IMG/VR virus record: IMGVR_UViG_3300020203_000066
Span: 1-30,568 of that record
DNA length: 30,568 nt
Reading direction: 5' to 3' (one strand)
Source: a virus
A program made the translations under genes and the position numbers. The notes beneath the pieces were generated by a model that had not been told where the DNA came from, searched no databases, and saw nothing but the letters and a program-made list of their open reading frames with translations. This document shows positions 3,087 through 30,392 of the stretch, one piece after another; within the stretch, counting starts at the first letter, position 1; the number at the start of each line of letters is the position of its first letter.

Positions 3087-5795
3087 ATGACAAATCTCGT
3101 ATCTGAACATAACGAAAAAATAACGGAAGAGCTTATTGCAAATCCAGAGCTTATTAAAAATAAGAGATGGAGGATGGATAATTTATATTGGATAATAACT
3201 AAGGATGGGAAGAAGGAGCCTTTTAATATGAATCGGGCACAACTTCATTTTTTTGAAAATTACTTATCTATCCCAGGAAAGATATACCACAGGCATGTTA
3301 TTTTAAAAGCGAGGCAACTTGGGTTTACGACATTTATTGATATTTTTATATTAGATGAGATTCTTTTTAATACGAATAAGGAGGCTATTATTATTGCTCA
3401 CAAAGTTGAAGATGCTACTCAGATTTTTGATAAGAAAGTAGACTTTGCAGTTAGAAACATGGCGGCTGATGTTAAAGATGCGTTCTTTAATATAAAACAC
3501 AACTCAGCGAAGAAGATACAGGTGACATTAGACTACGGACCAGAGAAGGGTTCGACTTCTTCGATTACTGTTTCTACCTCTGGACGTTCTGGAACATTTC
3601 ATCTTGTGCATATTTCTGAGTTTGCGAAGATGTGTATCTTATTTCCTAAGAGAGCGGATGAAGTGGAAACAGGAACTTTTCCAGCGGTTCCTTTTGATGG
3701 TTTTATTTTTATTGAAAGTACTGCGGAAGGTATGGCAGGGAGGTTCTATGAAGTGTTTCAAGAGAGGTGGCTTACTCGGGAGAAGATTACTCCTCAGCTT
3801 TCTCAAGTTCAGTTTCTCCCACACTTCTACAACTGGCAGTATGATGATATGGAAATGAAGAAGATTCAGAATACTATACCAACTTTGGAGATGGATGAGT
3901 GTGAGATTGATTGGACTGAGTACCAGTCGGAAAATAATCTTACGGATTTAGAGATAACTTACTACTACATGAAATGGCAACAGCTTGGAGGAAAGGGTGG
4001 TACTGATGCTGTGAAAAAATTGAAGCAGGAATACCCGACTACTCCAGAGGAGGCTTTTCTATCAACCGGGCAATCTTACTTCCCCATTGCTAAAGTGGCT
4101 TCTCTTCTTGCGAAGGTGGAACACGGAATAAAAGGAGAACTATTTACTGATGAAAAAGGTGAAGTTAGTTTTATGGCCAACTCATCCGGGAACTTTGAAA
4201 TGTTCGAAAAGCCGGAAGTTGGGACTAGGTATATTATTGGTGGGGATACTTCGGAGGGTCTAGCTCACGGGGATGCTCAGGTGCTCTATGTTATTAATCA
4301 TAAGACTGAAAATTGTGCTGGGATTTACCGGTCACAAGTATCACCAGATGAATTGGCTAACGAAGCATATAAACTCGGGAAATTTTATAATTGGGCTTTA
4401 CTTGCTATCGAAGTAAATAAAGATGGACTCTGGGTCAACGATGCTTTAGAAAAGATGGGGTATGTAAATCTTTATGCTCGGAAGGTCTTTGACGATATAA
4501 CTCAGAAGATTACAAAGTTTTTTGGTTGGAAGACTACCTCCTCTACACGACCATTCTCATTAGCGGCATTGAAAGCGGTCTTTCTTAGGAAGAATAGTGG
4601 GTTTCCATCAGCACTCCTTAATGAGATGTTTACTTTCATTCGAAATGTAAAAGGTAAGCCAGAGGCTATGGATAAAAAAAAGGATGATTGTTTCGTTGCT
4701 GGGACACAAATTCTTACTGACAAAGGTAATATTCCGATTGAAAAAATAAAAGTGGGGGATATGGTTATGACTCGTAATGGGTACAGACCTGTGGAAATAA
4801 CCCGTAGTAGTTATAAAAGAGTAGTAAATAATATAGGATTGGTGGGTACACCTGACCATTCCATTGTATCAACCAAGGATAATTCTAAAAAAGGAGATAT
4901 TGTGTTGTCTACTGTTACTGATAGTGATACACTATATATATGGAACTCAACAAAAAGGATGATAGAGAAATTATTATATACGGAGGCAAAAGATATACTC
5001 GACACACAGAGTCAAAACGCAGACAACATCGTGTATATTTTTGGAGACATGATAATGGGAAAGTACCACTTGTTGCATTACATAGGCAGATTTGGATTGA
5101 TACTTACGGAGAGATATCTAGGTATAATGTTATACACCATAAAGATGGTAACCCTCTTAATAACAAAATTGAAAATTTGGAATGTATGTCTGCAAGTGAA
5201 CATGCGAAACATCACATGGGAACTCCTGAGAGAAGAGAGCTTTCTAGTAAAACTGCTAAAAAACAAGGGACAAGACTTTATGAATCAGGGGCAATTTGGA
5301 GAAGGACAAAAGAGGGTATCGAGTTTAACAGACAAAACATCTATGGTTCACTTCAACTCAAAGAACCCGAGTGGTTTGTTTGTAGAATCTGCAAGAAAAG
5401 TTTTGAATCTAGGGTTAGGAGCTCTATATTTTGTTCTAAAAAATGTAGTGTTTGGTATTCGAACCACAAAAACAATAATTTTAAGTTTGGTAAAACTGTT
5501 AGTTGTCCTATCTGCAAGACTATGTTTATTGCTGCCGTTAATCACCTTAAGTATTGTTCTAAAAAGTGCAGGGTTAAATATTCTAATGATAAAGCAGCTG
5601 CAAAGGAGAAGGGTCTACAATCTTCAGGTTGCTGATACCCACGAATACTTTGCTAACGGAATTTTGGTTTTCAATTGTGTGATGGCGGCTTCTATTGGAT
5701 ATGCAGTTCTTCAGGAGCAAGGTAGGTATATTGCTGATGTTCAAGGAACTGAAGGTTTCTCACATTTGAAAGTTTTATTCGGAGAAACTCAGTAA
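3087..5795 (+). CDS. terL: Terminase large subunit interrupted by an intein
   Basis: DNA-packaging motor ATPase and nuclease. The 902-aa translation is a 573-aa terminase (residues 1-534 and 864-902) plus a 329-aa intein. ATPase signs: a Walker A-like segment KARQLGFTT (residues 74-82), Walker B region HLVHISE (172-178) and the coupling motif FIESTAEG (208-215). Nuclease signs: GGD at Asp387, IEV at Glu442, and the third acidic motif DDCVMA, which is formed only after splicing of Asp534 to Cys864. The intein therefore sits exactly in the third catalytic motif, a typical highly conserved homing site. The gene starts 3 nt after terS. A second protein, an HNH nuclease, is encoded in the -1 frame inside the intein part. 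Confidence 0.92.
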   Translation: MTNLVSEHNEKITEELIANPELIKNKRWRMDNLYWIITKDGKKEPFNMNRAQLHFFENYLSIPGKIYHRHVILKARQLGFTTFIDIFILDEILFNTNKEAIIIAHKVEDATQIFDKKVDFAVRNMAADVKDAFFNIKHNSAKKIQVTLDYGPEKGSTSSITVSTSGRSGTFHLVHISEFAKMCILFPKRADEVETGTFPAVPFDGFIFIESTAEGMAGRFYEVFQERWLTREKITPQLSQVQFLPHFYNWQYDDMEMKKIQNTIPTLEMDECEIDWTEYQSENNLTDLEITYYYMKWQQLGGKGGTDAVKKLKQEYPTTPEEAFLSTGQSYFPIAKVASLLAKVEHGIKGELFTDEKGEVSFMANSSGNFEMFEKPEVGTRYIIGGDTSEGLAHGDAQVLYVINHKTENCAGIYRSQVSPDELANEAYKLGKFYNWALLAIEVNKDGLWVNDALEKMGYVNLYARKVFDDITQKITKFFGWKTTSSTRPFSLAALKAVFLRKNSGFPSALLNEMFTFIRNVKGKPEAMDKKKDDCFVAGTQILTDKGNIPIEKIKVGDMVMTRNGYRPVEITRSSYKRVVNNIGLVGTPDHSIVSTKDNSKKGDIVLSTVTDSDTLYIWNSTKRMIEKLLYTEAKDILDTQSQNADNIVYIFGDMIMGKYHLLHYIGRFGLILTERYLGIMLYTIKMVTLLITKLKIWNVCLQVNMRNITWELLREESFLVKLLKNKGQDFMNQGQFGEGQKRVSSLTDKTSMVHFNSKNPSGLFVESARKVLNLGLGALYFVLKNVVFGIRTTKTIILSLVKLLVVLSARLCLLLPLITLSIVLKSAGLNILMIKQLQRRRVYNLQVADTHEYFANGILVFNCVMAASIGYAVLQEQGRYIADVQGTEGFSHLKVLFGETQ
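4689..5675 (+). other. Intein in the terminase nuclease motif, 329 aa
   Basis: Splicing block A starts with Cys535 (CFVAGTQILTDKG) and reads on into EKIKVGDMVMT, typical of Hint domains. Block B is TPDH (Thr588, His591). The C-terminal block F is VYNLQVADTHEYFANG and block G is LVFN followed by the extein Cys864. The terminal Asn863 is present, but the usual penultimate His is Phe862, a known but less common variant. Between about residues 640 and 840 the splicing frame has no recognisable intein or LAGLIDADG sequence and is hydrophobic. This is because the DNA there encodes an HNH protein in the -1 frame. The splicing domains are complete at both ends and in one frame, so protein splicing is likely still active. 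Confidence 0.85.
4940..5635 (+). CDS. HNH homing endonuclease nested in the intein, -1 frame
   Basis: A complete 231-aa protein starting MELNKKDDREIIIYGGKRY. The N-terminal part (YGGKRYTRH ... LHRQIW, residues 14-52) and the core VIHHKDGNPLNN..ENL (64-80), with His48, His66/67, Asn75 and His88, match stand-alone HNH homing nucleases. Two treble-clef-like zinc fingers follow: C148xxC151/C165xxxC169 and C189xxC192/C206xxxC210. The ORF is closed upstream by TGA at 4925-4927, so it is not a simple -1 extension from far upstream. Its ATG uses the last base of a terminase ATA codon plus TGG, and its TGA stop straddles GCT-GAT within intein block F. No SD and no canonical slippery heptamer are visible, so internal initiation is the simpler guess. 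Confidence 0.88.
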   Translation: MELNKKDDREIIIYGGKRYTRHTESKRRQHRVYFWRHDNGKVPLVALHRQIWIDTYGEISRYNVIHHKDGNPLNNKIENLECMSASEHAKHHMGTPERRELSSKTAKKQGTRLYESGAIWRRTKEGIEFNRQNIYGSLQLKEPEWFVCRICKKSFESRVRSSIFCSKKCSVWYSNHKNNNFKFGKTVSCPICKTMFIAAVNHLKYCSKKCRVKYSNDKAAAKEKGLQSSGC

Positions 5796-5869
5796 AGTTG
5801 ACAACTTAATTGTGTTTTATTTCAAATAAGTATATTATTTATGTATAAATTCATAAAATTTTAAAAATA

Positions 5870-7987
5870 ATGGCAAAATTATCTCCCGAAGACAAAATTG
5901 TAGTAGATTTCGTTGAAGAAAAGAAAAAAGAGATGAAAAAGAGCCAGTATCGAGAAAAATTCGATGCTTTATCCTCTGAAATTTCAATAAACTTAGTAAA
6001 CACAAGTGTTTCTTATGGACAGAAGTTGTATGAGAAGTCTGGTTGGGGTTCTATGATGTTTTACAATCGTATGGCTAATGGAGCTTACGATATAAATGTA
6101 TATCCTCAAAAGTTAAATGACCGGGACCAAAACCGTTCAGGTGTTCCAGTTTCCCAGGAACCAATTGCTTTCTCAAAAATTATGATTGCCACCTCTGTTT
6201 TGGCTGGAAAACTGCCTGATGCGGAGGTTTTTGCTGATGACAAGGTCTATGCTCGAGCAATGTATGAACTTTGGAGAAGAGGTTGGGCTCTTTCTGGTGC
6301 GAATGGTGAAAATACTATGATGTTGGTGTATCAAAATCTATTTACTTATGGATGGGCGGCATGGCGTGTCTATCCACGAAGAGTTCAAGTGAAACGAAAA
6401 GGAGTAGACAAAATTCTATTCGATGATATTTACCGTGAACCATTAGATCCTACTAGAACATGGGTTGGAATAGGATTTAACCAAGGTGACTATTGGTCAC
6501 AAATGGAGGTATATTACGAAAGAGATATGCCAAAGTCAGAGTTCTATGAAAAGTATCCCCAAGCTAAAGACAACAAATCTAAGTTGGAATACTGTTCTGT
6601 CTCAGATGAAGCAAAGCAAGAGAATGATGAAAAGACTAAGACAAGTGTCACTATTGGTTATTATGAGAACGTACTATTAAATCGATACATTGTAAAATGT
6701 GGGAAATTGCTTATTTACGATGGGGAAATGCCAAACGATGAATCTCATGGCTCAACTATAATTGTCCGATGTTTTACTAAAAATCCAAATGACCCATACG
6801 GAGTTGGTCTTTATGAAATGATGCGTGGAAATACTGCTCTATTTACATATATTAACTCACTTAACGCACAGCAAGTTGAAGCAGAAATCTTCCCTCTTCT
6901 TTTCGGACCTCAAGTTCAGAACGGAACAGCAACATATAAACGTGGACCGAATATCGTAAACCCTAAGACTCCTGGTTCAACAATTGATATTGTTCGAACA
7001 ACTGGAAATGTCCAGCAAGGAATTGCTTTCGCTGACAAACAGAAGGAATCTATAGAGCAGAACACTGGAGTAAACAATATTGTCGCTGGACAAAACGCTG
7101 AGAACACTCTTGGTTCAACAGTGATTCTGAAAGAGGCAGCATACAACCGTCTTACTCCTCCAAAGAATTCAGTTATGAATGGTCTTCAAATGGATGCACA
7201 CATTGCTGCTTCTTGGATGATGCAAACATATACAGTTGATAAAGTTTTTATGATTGATTCAGACGAAAACCTTGCTGAATTTACAAAACAGAATCCTAAC
7301 TACTTTGTACAATCTGAACAAATTATTGGTGACGATGGTATTCCAAAAGGACATGCAGTTGCTGCCTCTCCAAACCTTAGACTTAATTTTGACTTTACTC
7401 CGGAGGGAGAAATCATGGACAATGTTGAACCTAGAACAATATCAGCAAAGAGTCTGTTTGATGAACTTGATGCTCATGGACATAAGTCAGCATATCTTGA
7501 GTTCGTTATTGACGGTGATTCAATGCTCCTTCCATCACTTGAGATTCAGAAGCAGACTTTTATGGCTCTCTTTCCAGTTATCACAAATCAGATTACTCTT
7601 ATTTTCTCAATGAGAAATCAGGACCCTGAAGCCGCTGCCTCACAGTTAAAGGCTCTCGAGCAACTCCTTAACATCCAAAGACAAAACATATACGACTTTA
7701 TTTCAAAAGCAGATTATGATGCAATCATGGCGAAAATGCCTTCAATGATGCAACAACAAATGATGCAACAACAAATGATGATGGATGCACAGAACACTGC
7801 GATGCAAACAGCAGCTGGAGGTGGATCTGGTGACATGGAATCTTCTGGACAAAAAATGTCTCAAGATGGAACTAATCCAATGCAACCTCAAAATCCTAAT
7901 GAAGTCCCAAGACCACAATCACCAATGATGGGAGCTGTTGATGCTTCTATGGGACGGGCCGCAAACCTTCCATTCTTTCCTGGATAA
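5870..7987 (+). CDS. Portal protein
   Basis: A 705-aa protein directly after terL, the normal place and about the normal size for a podovirus (P22-type) portal, which forms the dodecameric channel for DNA entry and exit. It starts MAKLSPEDKIVVDFVEEKK. The middle contains segments typical of portals: a Trp-rich WRRGWALSGANGEN region near residue 140, YGWAAWRVYPRR (about 164-175) and DPYGVGLYEMMRGN (about 307-320). The C-terminus has a Met/Gln-rich barrel-like helix (MMQQQMMQQQMMM, near 625-640) and a Gly/Pro/Gln-rich tail. A 74-bp A/T-rich gap separates it from terL. No SD is visible. The assignment rests on position, size and overall character rather than a single diagnostic motif. Confidence 0.8.
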   Translation: MAKLSPEDKIVVDFVEEKKKEMKKSQYREKFDALSSEISINLVNTSVSYGQKLYEKSGWGSMMFYNRMANGAYDINVYPQKLNDRDQNRSGVPVSQEPIAFSKIMIATSVLAGKLPDAEVFADDKVYARAMYELWRRGWALSGANGENTMMLVYQNLFTYGWAAWRVYPRRVQVKRKGVDKILFDDIYREPLDPTRTWVGIGFNQGDYWSQMEVYYERDMPKSEFYEKYPQAKDNKSKLEYCSVSDEAKQENDEKTKTSVTIGYYENVLLNRYIVKCGKLLIYDGEMPNDESHGSTIIVRCFTKNPNDPYGVGLYEMMRGNTALFTYINSLNAQQVEAEIFPLLFGPQVQNGTATYKRGPNIVNPKTPGSTIDIVRTTGNVQQGIAFADKQKESIEQNTGVNNIVAGQNAENTLGSTVILKEAAYNRLTPPKNSVMNGLQMDAHIAASWMMQTYTVDKVFMIDSDENLAEFTKQNPNYFVQSEQIIGDDGIPKGHAVAASPNLRLNFDFTPEGEIMDNVEPRTISAKSLFDELDAHGHKSAYLEFVIDGDSMLLPSLEIQKQTFMALFPVITNQITLIFSMRNQDPEAAASQLKALEQLLNIQRQNIYDFISKADYDAIMAKMPSMMQQQMMQQQMMMDAQNTAMQTAAGGGSGDMESSGQKMSQDGTNPMQPQNPNEVPRPQSPMMGAVDASMGRAANLPFFPG

Positions 7988-28370: not shown

Positions 28371-30392
28371 CTAGGGAGAGCCGTTTATTGATGATGCTAT
28401 TCTTGCCTCTGCTATCTTAACATATTCTGGGTCAAGTTCTATACCTATGAAGTCAAAGCCTTCTAATACGCAAGCCTTGCCTGTGCTACCGCTTCCTGTG
28501 AAGGGGTCAAGTACTGTTCCTCCCTTTGGCGTTACAAGTCTTACTAGGTATTGCATAAGGGAGGTGGGTTTTACAGTGGGGTGGTTGTTTTTAGTGTTTT
28601 TGCTTTCCATTTCTTTATAGTAAACTTCACCTGAACATCTCGAATGGTCATTAGTTCCATTAAGTGTCTTATCGCAAGTTTTACAAGTTGGACTTTGTGA
28701 ATAATTACCTGCTGTAAACTTTTCTGAAGTTTCAAACCCCTCCAGCCCCTCATTCCTATCTTTCTTTGAAGCCTTCGCACAGTAGAAGAAGCGTGAGGCG
28801 GAGCCAGAGTCGCCACGTTGAACCCTATCTACATGGTCGCCCGTAAACCATGATTTACTTGTTCCCCTATTTATTTCATTTCTATCAATGGTTGACTTGC
28901 TCTCAGGAAACAACCCTACCACCTCATCACTTCCGTCGTGGATAAAGTTTGCGGGGAATCTGCCTTGATTTTGTGGCTCACTTTTCCAACCATTATTGGG
29001 GGCATTGGGCGTACTTGTTTCTTTATTATTACCTTGTACTCTTTCTAGTTTTTCTTCCGTTCCTACCCTACACCCATCTATATTTATCCCCCCCGTCCCC
29101 CACTTCAATACATTCTCTGCGATAGTGCTTTCTGATAGTGGCTTGCGTGCCATACAAATAGGTTCGTGAGCAGGTTTTAGAGCTGTACCCCAGCCTTCGT
29201 AGGGTGATATGCCTTTGGATAAATCCCATTTATTACCAACACCTTTCTCGGATTGCCAGCTTCTATTTTTTGAATCTGGATTTGTTTTATTTTGTATATG
29301 CTCTCCCAAGTCTTCCCTCTCATTCCCCTGCAACTTATCAACTGCCTTTCCTATTAGAATATCTACCATGTTTGAAATTAGGCATTCCATTGTGTATTCC
29401 GTAATAATGACATTGGTGGCAGACACACATTCCATTTGAGAGTTTGTGTCTAAGCTCTGGAAAGTCTTTGATTGATTTAATATGGTGAGCTTCAAGGTGT
29501 CGGTCAGTAGCACACATAGAACATTTGTAATTTCCTCGTTTGAGTATTTCTGATTTCCACGCAAGGTCTTCAGGGCTTCGTCTACCTTGAGATTGACCGT
29601 TGTGTTTTCGTTTAGCCATTCCCTGACATTGCATTCCGCAGTAAAAATGCTCCAAGACTTGTGATTTCGGTCTTGTGATAATTTTATTACAGACTTCACA
29701 AGGTTTTGTGATAGTTCTGTGTTTTGTTCTACACTCTCTACTGCAATAGATAGATTCTCCTCTGATATGCGACTTGGAACGCATAAGCTCAACTCCGCAG
29801 TTATCGCATCTGCATATTTGTTTTTTTGATTGAAATACAGAACAGCAATGTCGGGAACAAAATACTTTTTTTGAGTATTGCTTCCAACTCCTGTTAGACT
29901 CTTTGCTAATTTTATTTCCGCAAGTTTTGCATTCGTTTTCCATAACTCAATTATAGTCTTTTGGTCTATATTGTCAAGTGCATTGCTTATCTTTGACCAC
30001 TCTTTTGTTTCAAGGGAATTGACGCTTTTCCCAAGATTGTGACTTTTTGGGAAGCCTGAGCCGTAAACCCACATAATCTGGTCTCGTATCTCAAACCCAG
30101 CGTCTTCAATGTTCACCGCCATTCTGTGATAGGTTCTACTACCTGCAAAAGAAAGTAAGTGTCCACCTGGCTTTAATACCCTGATAGCTTCTTTCCATAG
30201 CTCTACTGTTGGCACATCGTAATCCCAAACCTTACCCATAAAAGATAGACCATACGGAGGGTCAGTTACGATTGAGTCCACACTATTTTCTTCTAGTGTT
30301 TTTAATATTTCCAAGCTGTCTCCCTGCAAAACTATATTTTTGTATTCAAACTCCTTATCAAACTCCGCTAAGATTTTTTCTGTGTTGTTCAT
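28371..30392 (-). CDS. DNA methyltransferase (beta class, N4/N6) with an inserted in-frame segment
   Basis: Transfers a methyl group from SAM to the amino group of A or C in DNA. Catalytic motif IV is DPPYG (Asp44-Tyr47) near the N-terminus and the SAM-binding motif FTGSGSTG (631-638) is near the C-terminus, the beta-class order. Other landmarks are WVYGSGFPKSHNLGK (108-122), WGTALKPAHEPI (401-412), NNHPTVKPT (602-610) and a Cys-rich patch CKTCDKTL...HSRC (570-586). At 673 aa it is about 227 residues longer than needed because residues 123-349 are an insertion, after which AVDKLQGNERE continues the normal sequence. The insertion holds an HNH gene in the -1 frame. A partial Dam-like gene lies just upstream. 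Confidence 0.88.
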   Translation of the reverse strand: MNNTEKILAEFDKEFEYKNIVLQGDSLEILKTLEENSVDSIVTDPPYGLSFMGKVWDYDVPTVELWKEAIRVLKPGGHLLSFAGSRTYHRMAVNIEDAGFEIRDQIMWVYGSGFPKSHNLGKSVNSLETKEWSKISNALDNIDQKTIIELWKTNAKLAEIKLAKSLTGVGSNTQKKYFVPDIAVLYFNQKNKYADAITAELSLCVPSRISEENLSIAVESVEQNTELSQNLVKSVIKLSQDRNHKSWSIFTAECNVREWLNENTTVNLKVDEALKTLRGNQKYSNEEITNVLCVLLTDTLKLTILNQSKTFQSLDTNSQMECVSATNVIITEYTMECLISNMVDILIGKAVDKLQGNEREDLGEHIQNKTNPDSKNRSWQSEKGVGNKWDLSKGISPYEGWGTALKPAHEPICMARKPLSESTIAENVLKWGTGGINIDGCRVGTEEKLERVQGNNKETSTPNAPNNGWKSEPQNQGRFPANFIHDGSDEVVGLFPESKSTIDRNEINRGTSKSWFTGDHVDRVQRGDSGSASRFFYCAKASKKDRNEGLEGFETSEKFTAGNYSQSPTCKTCDKTLNGTNDHSRCSGEVYYKEMESKNTKNNHPTVKPTSLMQYLVRLVTPKGGTVLDPFTGSGSTGKACVLEGFDFIGIELDPEYVKIAEARIASSINGSP
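29338..29943 (-). CDS. HNH homing endonuclease nested in the methyltransferase, -1 frame
   Basis: A complete 201-aa protein starting MENECKTCGNKISKESNRSW. Three treble-clef-like zinc fingers come first: C5xxC8/C29xxxC33, C46xxC49/C67xxxC71 and C82xxC85/C102xxxC106. Then a typical HNH domain follows: YKCSMC (141-144), EAHHIKSI (His153-154), SNGMCVCHQCH (Asn170, Cys175, Cys178, His179). TGA occurs 4 bases upstream of the ATG in this frame, so the ORF is self-contained. The ATG straddles the host codons TTA-TGG, and the stop TGA straddles GTT-GAT in the host's AVD. No SD. The surrounding methyltransferase frame is open throughout. Confidence 0.88.
   Translation of the reverse strand: MENECKTCGNKISKESNRSWKQYSKKVFCSRHCCSVFQSKKQICRCDNCGVELMRSKSHIRGESIYCSRECRTKHRTITKPCEVCNKIITRPKSQVLEHFYCGMQCQGMAKRKHNGQSQGRRSPEDLAWKSEILKRGNYKCSMCATDRHLEAHHIKSIKDFPELRHKLSNGMCVCHQCHYYGIHNGMPNFKHGRYSNRKGS
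29346..30026 (-). mobile_element. In-frame 681-nt insertion in the methyltransferase carrying an HNH gene
   Basis: Related phage methyltransferases read ...SHNxGKAVDKLQGNERE directly. Here 227 open codons (SVNSLETKEWSKISNAL ... NMVDILIGK) lie between GK and AVDKLQ. The segment lacks Cys/Ser at the start and Asn-Cys at the end, so it is not an intein, and I see no group I/II intron fold. Its first residues GKSVNSLETKE resemble the host residues after it, GKAVDKLQGNE, so the target appears duplicated in degenerate form. The length is divisible by three. I infer a homing element whose host-frame product is tolerated as an extra loop. Confidence 0.7.

Follow-up and report, generated by a model that had tools for sequence, protein, structure and literature searches.

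A probable mobile intein in a phage large terminase gene, with a candidate HNH homing endonuclease encoded out of frame

The window, by which we mean the whole 30,568-nt stretch of viral DNA analysed, very probably carries, in the nuclease motif of its large terminase (TerL) gene, a mobile cis-splicing intein whose homing endonuclease is encoded as a separate overlapping gene with internal initiation of translation. The architecture of the locus, its open frame, the frame that is conserved, the presence or absence of the element in near-identical phages and its recurrence in many lineages are all apparent from the sequences compared here. The initial annotation had described a complete HNH protein with two zinc fingers in the −1 frame of an open terminase intein. 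ORF and codon checks confirmed that the TerL/intein frame is open across 4940-5635, and the HNH protein was verified by a match to HNH_3 and by both of its C4 sites. The features of the locus are as follows.

3087-5795, plus strand: TerL with intein, a single ORF of 902 aa
3087..4688, plus strand: TerL N-extein, 534 aa, ending ...MDKKKDD (PHROG terminase large subunit)
4689..5675, plus strand: intein, 329 codons / 987 nt in the TerL frame (blocks by profile, codons checked)
4689..4937, plus strand: N-terminal splicing half of the intein (IntN, Hint fold), first 83 codons (Hint_2, AlphaFold)
4925..4939, plus strand: leader of the HNH gene, TGATAnnnTA..., immediately 5' of the ATG (comparison with relatives)
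4940..5635, plus strand: HNH endonuclease gene, 231 aa, ATG start, −1 frame relative to TerL (PF13392)
4938..5606, plus strand: stop-free linker (the TerL-frame reading of the HNH bases), of drifting sequence and without a recognised domain
5607..5675, plus strand: C-terminal splicing half of the intein (IntC), RRVYNLQVADTHEYFANGILVFN (profile score 52.0, iE 1.6e-16)
5676..5795, plus strand: TerL C-extein with +1 Cys (CVMAASIGYAVL...), stop included

The window TerL is matched by phrog_2 (PHROG terminase large subunit) at E 1e-26, and the N-extein ends, with MDKKKDD, at what we take to be the TerL nuclease catalytic motif. HNH codons begin at 2 mod 3 relative to TerL, which is the −1 frame, and stops just before 4928 close the HNH frame upstream, so that fusion to the N-terminal half of the intein is impossible without a frameshift. 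The endonuclease is therefore not an in-frame domain of the intein. Nor is this a split intein with IntN and IntC on separate ORFs, as both halves lie in one ORF.

Motif conservation and structure prediction support the interpretation of the element as a real intein. Pfam Hint_2 was matched at TerL residues 535-569 (E 2.6e-8), and the intein possesses C1, block-B T54 and H57, and a terminal Asn329. C1, the block-B His and the terminal Asn are invariant in two hand-picked alignments, of 50 sequences (A3, from 70 hosts) and of 53 sequences (A4, from 58 inteins, a set from which 12 of the 70 had already been left out), and T54 is conserved at a level of at least 90% in the latter. The C-terminal junction reads ...VFN followed by C, i.e. 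Asn and then the +1 Cys, and the +1 residue is Cys or Ser at 69 of the 70 loci listed, L071 being the exception. The penultimate intein residue is Phe in the window and in relative L018, and His in most relatives; a penultimate His is common in inteins and is not required. In the AlphaFold model of the TerL-frame intein, pLDDT (by blocks of 10) is 93-98 for residues 1-60, 62-91 for residues 61-100 and 95-96 for residues 311-329, with parts of the loop at 43-50. The best PDB match to this model is the gp41-1 intein 6qaz (E 1.1e-5, TM 0.52 by target length), and other inteins rank next.

The product of the HNH frame matches Pfam HNH_3 (PF13392) at E 6e-13. Residues H66, H67, N75, N79 and H92 are invariant in 50 sequences (alignment A5, hand-picked, comprising 43 of 58 HNH rows plus seven from a further scan in which 80 of 81 loci were kept). 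Of the two C4 zinc sites, C148/C151/C165/C169 and C189/C192/C206/C210, both are invariant among 11 aligned sequences, while among the 50 sequences near-invariance is limited to the first, and certain relatives have just one site. The AlphaFold model of the protein has a mean pLDDT of 91.2. Its HNH core is homologous to that of I-HmuI, the nearest solved relative and the best match in a Foldseek search with the model (E 0.012), which returned no match below E 0.001.

To see which frame is conserved, the window can be compared with L018. The change per codon position is 0.19/0.17/0.37 in the HNH frame and 0.18/0.37/0.19 in the host frame over the HNH bases, and identity over this region is 71% in the HNH frame and 52% in the host frame. 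Outside the HNH, host-frame identity is 83% for IntN and 91% for IntC. This indicates purifying selection on the HNH frame, and a host frame that drifts where the two overlap and is conserved beyond the overlap. In every pair listed identity is higher in the HNH frame, and the host-frame second position is the fastest in most of the other pairs, but not in some more diverged ones; dS is mostly saturated among the locus pairs compared. Third-position change between the window and L018 is lower in the HNH (0.37) than in TerL (0.56), and there may be some constraint on the host frame beyond the avoidance of stops. The less variable third positions would also be expected if the TerL-frame middle were a second functional domain, with both frames selected for protein function. 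We consider this very improbable in view of the fast host-frame second positions, the consistently higher HNH-frame identity, the low-confidence loop in the AlphaFold model and the lack of any family match: a Pfam search with the TerL-frame translation of the middle gave no match above cut-off, in agreement with the initial annotation, which saw no recognisable domain there.

The host frame appears to be kept open by selection. With the HNH protein held fixed, 4.1 TerL-frame stops are expected at the window when synonymous codons are shuffled within the gene (P 0.004), and 6.6 when codons follow the usage of the window TerL (P of none 0.002). Chance-open host frames are thus not common in the null simulation that had been proposed. 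Taken singly, the open frame at the window is moderately improbable, with a chance of about 1 in 250-500; the value of 1.6e-5 first put forward was too small and overstated the case for a single locus. It is the relatives that decide the matter: at 62 non-redundant nested loci, which had been selected for an open ORF, there are no host-frame stops, where 233.5 are expected from neighbouring-gene codon usage and 117.6 from the within-gene shuffle. By comparison, that frame contains 147 stops, against 102 expected, in the 23 relatives that are free-standing or split (95 against 67.7 for free-standing and 52 against 34.0 for split relatives), and 2 of 16 free-standing relatives (L009, L052) likewise have none. 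A stop-read-through scan, with profiles made from open loci and with the N half of some split loci missed, picked up the two splicing blocks together at 70 of 94 loci (L011, omitted elsewhere as a copy of L010, is included here). Among these 70, 66 have the blocks in one frame with no stops, three have 13-17 stops and one has its halves in different frames; no half-decayed host frames were seen. Together, the nulls and the nested loci support the earlier view that the open frame looks selected. It could still be argued that the open frame reflects chance or hitchhiking, and that the intein is split (trans-splicing, with the HNH between its halves) or non-splicing. Split forms of the element do exist (L010, L014, L064, L067, L079, L094, L095), and the window alone gives only the single-locus chance noted above. 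However, the absence of stops from all 62 nested loci leads us to reject a chance open frame, and with the sharp division of the two-block loci it makes this reading highly unlikely.

The arrangement is real at the window and, far from being confined to it, is widespread. There are at least 237 viral HNH relatives, and in 66 of the best 80 the HNH is read out of frame with a host ORF that stays open across it, as it is at 70 of 93 classified loci. Phages TJE1 and Highwayman, whose genomes are annotated, have the arrangement, and it occurs in cellular contigs too. In-frame relatives had been named as evidence that would count against it. No in-frame fusion was found at any of the 93 classified loci of this HNH family, and the five in-frame HNH inteins that we did identify, by eye (L136, L147, L156, L161, L162), occur among distant cellular-genome matches. 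The phase is identical at 67 of the 70 loci, with L082, L085 and L090 in the other phase. Single-base errors on either side of the HNH could mimic the arrangement in one contig, and an ordinary in-frame HNH intein might be disguised in this way by sequencing or assembly. The phase shared among independent contigs and annotated phage genomes, together with the stops that the HNH frame carries just upstream of its own start, makes this exceedingly improbable; compensating indels find no support, and recurrence already refutes a disguised in-frame intein. At nested loci, neighbouring-gene codon usage predicts 4.2 stops per 200 codons for the frame in use against 16.7 for the alternative one, so the 67:3 bias in phase fits stop avoidance. 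A quick-method HNH tree of 88 rows has poor resolution, with 40 of 85 inner branches open. Parsimony on this tree needs 16 state changes, few of which are forced by starred branches, and so the tree leaves the order of states unshown. For the tree, the Shine-Dalgarno (SD) test and the codon null, L017, L020, L046, L055 and L063 were omitted as near copies, which took 93 loci to 88.

Empty sites in close kin point to the mobility expected with an HNH homing endonuclease. Among the matches listed, 78 TerL relatives are informative: seven have inteins at this site, all seven with the out-of-frame nested arrangement, and 71 have none. In L170, L172 and L173 the TerL is 99-100% identical to that of the window and lacks the insert, which is a precise 987-nt insertion relative to the near-identical phage L173. 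No clear co-conversion tract was seen against L170 or L173: mismatches are sparse near the insert, but sparse too across much of the region. Nor is transfer seen everywhere, since several pairs are more similar in TerL than in the HNH (80% against 65% for L048/L053, 86% against 74% for L077/L078). A free-standing HNH adjoins an intein-free terL in L181 and L186. A group I or II intron was rejected, as Rfam searches of 4400-6000 (E 1) and of nine sources gave no match. A different view would be that the HNH is a packaging nuclease acting with TerL, like HK97 gp74, and not a homing enzyme, its nesting being incidental. HNH relatives are often beside or inside terL, the HK97 HNH beside the terminase is described as acting in cos cleavage (PMC10448857), and the authors of a brucellaphage study, in the remark we draw on, take the overlap as favouring a functional association with terminase (PMC4422536). 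Against this stand the patchy distribution among close TerL relatives, the lack of the intein at 99-100% TerL identity, the precision of the insert and the presence of one element in a portal gene (L107), and we find it improbable.

Internal initiation of the HNH gene is suggested by its upstream sequences. SD-like sites (-5 kcal/mol or better) precede 57% of 65 nested HNH genes and 19% of 369 control out-of-frame ATGs, a contrast that is inflated by taking the best of 1.8 candidate starts (mean) against single controls. There is no Shine-Dalgarno before the window HNH, and 1 of 27 tested starts in this phage has one. Relatives, and two free-standing HNH copies as well, largely conserve the leader (4925..4939), which is possibly an extended -10 element. 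Programmed −1 frameshifting near 4930-4965 could instead yield a TerL-IntN-HNH fusion, which would suit the −1 phase of the HNH and a stop-free stretch that starts only 12 nt before the ATG. However, the A-runs near the HNH start are not conserved among relatives, the three loci in the other phase would require +1 shifting, SD-like sites precede many nested HNH genes, and free-standing copies follow the TerL stop while keeping a similar leader and start. As the phase bias fits stop avoidance and calls for no frameshift, the need for frameshifting was rejected, and such a fusion is in our judgement unlikely.

For a cis-splicing intein with an internally initiated nuclease, we infer splicing, internal initiation, cleavage and homing of the window element as follows. 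A single region of mRNA would be translated in two ways. Ribosomes from the TerL start would translate through all 329 intein codons, and IntN and IntC would fold together across a loop of ~220 unconstrained residues, excise it and restore TerL. Ribosomes starting internally at ATG 4940 would produce the HNH as a free enzyme, and this presumably cuts terL alleles that lack the intein, leading to the whole block being copied in. Selection would hold the host frame stop-free for the sake of the precursor, and the HNH protein would constrain the bases.

The usual description of an intein is either a single polypeptide with a built-in nuclease or a split gene. Here, across tens of divergent contigs from viral and cellular genomes, overlapping frames would uncouple the splicing and spreading functions, and gp41-1-like inteins seem to tolerate a ~220-residue unconstrained loop. 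Conceivably, though we would not put it at an even chance, inteins of phage packaging genes with an out-of-frame HNH form a widespread class that is a source of natural split inteins. If so, one host-frame stop would give two genes flanking a nuclease that already has its own start and stop, and the split forms seen in TerL, with their related HNH genes, would have arisen in this way. The arrangement offers a path, open to testing, by which contiguous inteins could become split ones, and it supplies natural overlapping genes in which each frame has an evident reason. The 'terminase' profile phrog_30251 matches window TerL residues 524-724, extending into the misread middle, so automatic annotation hides the nuclease.

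The initial annotation knew of no named system of this kind, but the arrangement has been remarked upon once, for brucellaphage terminases, and our literature search found no other treatment. A putative intein-encoded HNH gene is described there as out of frame within TerL, as in the window, and one HNH substitution is reported to be silent in TerL (PMC4422536). That remark, made in discussion, concerns a single phage group and does not extend to tests of the open frame, the splicing blocks or a wider distribution; what is new here is the breadth, the selection test, the empty sites and the co-occurring split forms. The ShiLan domain, comprising hidden HNH insertions in mycobacteriophage methylases, shares with the window a zinc-finger HNH in an alternate frame, a stop-free host gene and a patchy distribution (PMC11855218). 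ShiLan lacks splicing motifs or a Hint fold and the insert is thought to be retained, whereas the window has a complete intein around the HNH. A further likeness is at +1, where T/S is found solely in invaded ShiLan alleles (PMC11855218) and Cys replaces Val in the window. In classic endonuclease-bearing inteins, Hint halves likewise flank the endonuclease; that of the cyanophage CL131 dCTP deaminase is described as one protein, with HintN at residues 132-223 and an in-frame HNH_3 domain at 259-304 (PMC6293099), whereas the window nuclease occupies another frame and has a start and stop of its own. The I-HmuI-type HNH enzymes of group I introns have a homologous HNH core, but the window region has no Rfam match. 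Dassa reportedly described 'fractured genes' in 2009, in which split inteins have an endonuclease gene between their halves. Relatives of the window HNH likewise lie as separate genes between IntN and IntC, whereas the window intein is one uninterrupted ORF; gp41-1 is its best structural match.

The window spans an entire IMG/VR virus record (30,568 nt). Its terminase large subunit (TerL) gene is a single ORF that reads through an intein, and an HNH endonuclease gene lies in the -1 frame between the two splicing halves (IntN and IntC), confirming the arrangement described in the initial annotation. The features of the locus are:

3087-5795, + strand: TerL including the intein, single ORF, 902 aa
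4689-5675, + strand: intein, TerL residues 535-863; start CFVAGTQILTDKG..., block B TPDH, C-terminal end ...HEYFANGILVFN, then the +1 Cys
4925-4939, + strand: HNH leader, TGATAnnnTA... before the ATG, similar in 12 nested relatives and 2 free-standing copies (L181, L186)
4940-5635, + strand: HNH gene, -1 frame, between the splicing halves

Stops directly upstream close the HNH frame. In Pfam the TerL frame matches Hint_2 and the HNH frame matches HNH_3; the middle of the intein, read in the TerL frame, has no match above cut-off. The AlphaFold model of the TerL-frame intein has pLDDT values of 93-98 for residues 1-60 and 95-96 for residues 311-329, with 43-86 across much of the region between; the gp41-1 intein ranks first both in Foldseek (E 1.1e-5) and by sequence profile. 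The HNH model has a mean pLDDT of 91.2, and the best relative of this protein is I-HmuI, at E 4e-5 by profile and weakly by fold (E 0.012). Elsewhere in the window, a DNA methylase domain (N6_N4_Mtase, E 9.5e-35) lies in a 673-aa protein encoded at 28371-30392 (- strand).

A search from an alignment of 11 HNH proteins gave at least 237 viral relatives. The best 80 of these, 12 annotated phage loci and the window itself were classified (93 loci), and an HNH was called nested when it lay out of frame under a host-phase ORF, i.e. one in the TerL/intein frame, of at least 250 aa. The HNH is nested in 70 of the 93 loci, including 66 of the best 80 viral relatives, one of which (L017) is nearly a copy of the window. 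It takes the window's phase in 67 of the 70 and the other phase in three (L082, L085, L090). Judged by how long the HNH frame stays open (at most 306 aa from stop to stop), the 93 loci include no in-frame HNH fusion. The N block was matched in 69 of the 70 hosts, the exception being L063, which begins too far downstream; the matches in L048, L084 and L092 are weak. The C block was likewise matched in 69, with no match in L071 and weak ones in L082 and L084. Among the nested loci are those of the named phages Tetrasphaera phage TJE1, where the annotation is ‘large terminase’, and Acinetobacter phage Highwayman, where it is ‘terminase large subunit’. Among 50 hosts scanned against PHROGs, 41 matched phrog_2 and 36 matched phrog_30251, both terminase large subunit. 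The phrog_30251 match to the window TerL (aa 524-724) extends into the misread HNH region, so out-of-frame translations seem to have entered this reference profile.

Contigs of cellular genomes were also scanned, and at least 72 relatives were listed. In at least 14 of these contigs the two blocks lie in an open host ORF that is out of frame with the HNH (L097-L101, L104, L107, L109, L110, L116, L126, L132, L133, L141); L099 is an archaeal MAG, the host gene of the L107 element is a portal protein, and L098 (1331-4732, uncultured Clostridium MAG) has two inteins in one TerL, the HNH genes of both being out of frame and in the same phase. By reading of the sequence, five distant matches among those listed are in-frame HNH inteins (L136, L147, L156, L161, L162), whose host genes resemble ribonucleotide reductase, ThyX, DnaB and DNA polymerase. 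Very long TerL-like ORFs in L133 (1420-5793) and L119 (1747-5952) combine LAGLIDADG-type sequence with an intein carrying an out-of-frame HNH.

Comparing the window with its relative L018 over the HNH region, change per codon position is 0.19/0.17/0.37 when the HNH frame is read and 0.18/0.37/0.19 when the host frame is read, with identities of 71% and 52%, respectively. The splicing halves behave normally in the host frame (IntN 83%, IntC 91%, third position fastest). Identity is higher in the HNH frame in every pair printed, although these pairs overlap and dS is mostly saturated; the host-frame third position is fastest in some more diverged pairs. The codon-position pattern and the identities suggest that, across the HNH, the host frame encodes a loop held open rather than a domain.

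The proposal that the open host frame is selected was upheld by null models. When neighbouring genes supply the synonymous codons and the HNH protein is left unchanged, 233.5 host-frame stops are expected in the 62 non-redundant nested loci, which have 0; 117.6 are expected under within-gene shuffling, which retains each gene's own adapted codon use. The three other-phase loci have 0 stops in their own host phase vs 42.6 expected. Using neighbouring-gene codons, 16 free-standing relatives have 95 stops vs 67.7 expected (0 in L009 and L052), and seven split relatives have 52 vs 34.0; within-gene shuffling gives 132.7 for these 23, vs 147 seen. For the window alone, the chance of an open host frame is 0.002 (neighbouring-gene codons) or 0.004 (within-gene shuffle), so the original estimate of 1.6e-5 was too low. 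Five further close intein-bearing relatives (L185, L213, L219, L222, L246) each give P ≤0.01.

A stop-ignoring scan of 94 loci, with block profiles made from open loci, detected the two blocks at 70. They share a stop-free frame at 66 of these, share a frame with 13-17 stops at three (L064, L079, L095) and lie in different frames at one (L014). These profiles missed the N half of L010, L011, L067 and L094. Sequence reading identified split inteins in L010, L014, L064, L067, L079, L094 and L095, named examples being Lactobacillus phage CL2 (L014) and Vibrio phage 1.245.O (L010). In TerL, the split layout is a TerL-IntN ORF ending at a stop, a related HNH gene, and an IntC-TerL ORF. Split inteins with an endonuclease gene between the halves (‘fractured genes’) were reportedly described by Dassa in 2009. 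Judged from the scan and this reading, the element is found in two states, contiguous with an open frame or split, where the frame is interrupted freely; none of the scanned and split loci looked half-decayed.

Of 81 close TerL relatives, 80 were used and 78 extend to the insertion site. The intein is present there in seven and absent from 71; in all seven the host ORF is open and the HNH is out of frame in the same phase, and two (L169, L171) are near-identical to the window. In L170, L172 and L173 the insert is absent, and the TerL N-exteins are 99-100% identical to that of the window. The site reads GATGAT^GTGGTGATG in L173 and GATGAT[987 nt]TGTGTGATG in the window, and this comparison gives a +1 codon of Val without the insert and Cys with it. 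Seven intein-free relatives have Cys in place of Val/Ile at +1 (L180, L186, L194, L209, L226, L228, L233), a possible footprint of intein loss. A free-standing HNH (57-61% identity) directly follows intein-free terL in L181 (4440-4859; 4 stops) and L186 (5772-6164; 5 stops), with 5.4 stops expected in each. L186 is also one of the seven whose TerL has the +1 Cys, which looks as if an intein had been lost. Higher identity for the HNH than for the TerL N-extein in some pairs (L024/L025, 62% v 34%; L049/L059, 68% v 50%) suggests transfer; L048/L053 show the reverse (65% v 80%).

Taking the best of 1.8 candidate starts on average, 57% of 65 nested HNH genes have an SD-like site of -5 kcal/mol or better upstream, vs 19% of 369 extein ATGs that are out of frame. 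None precedes the window HNH, one of 26 among 27 ORF starts tested in this phage that lack such a site. The leader is also alike in free-standing L181 and L186, free there of intein coding constraint; those of L019 and L022 deviate. TGnTAnnnT occurs 4-8 nt upstream of the start in 12 of 70 nested loci, which are not independent, vs 13 of 1130 control ATGs. The window leader may act as an extended -10 promoter that runs up to the start codon, which would make the HNH start near-leaderless.

The initial annotation knew of no named system of this kind; the arrangement is in fact common (70/93 loci), and one paper already remarks on a putative out-of-frame intein HNH in brucellaphage TerL, its authors considering an association with packaging (PMC4422536). 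HNH insertions that lie out of frame in mycobacteriophage methylases (ShiLan) are described with the host frame open but, unlike here, without a splicing domain (PMC11855218), and another such methylase is mentioned (PMC12613952). Other papers report inteins that lie in the ATPase domain of mycobacteriophage TerL (PMC5050341), TerL insertions near the N terminus apparently encoding HNH endonucleases (PMC3706429), a self-excising in-frame HintN-HNH_3 phage intein (PMC6293099) and homing endonuclease genes near terminases (PMC10448857). No wider account of out-of-frame intein HNH genes was found in the literature searched, most subscription papers being outside its reach. Inteins, HNH homing enzymes, hidden HNH insertions and the brucellaphage remark are thus already known; new, as far as we have seen, are the breadth of the arrangement, the selection test, the empty sites in near-identical phages and the side-by-side occurrence with split forms.
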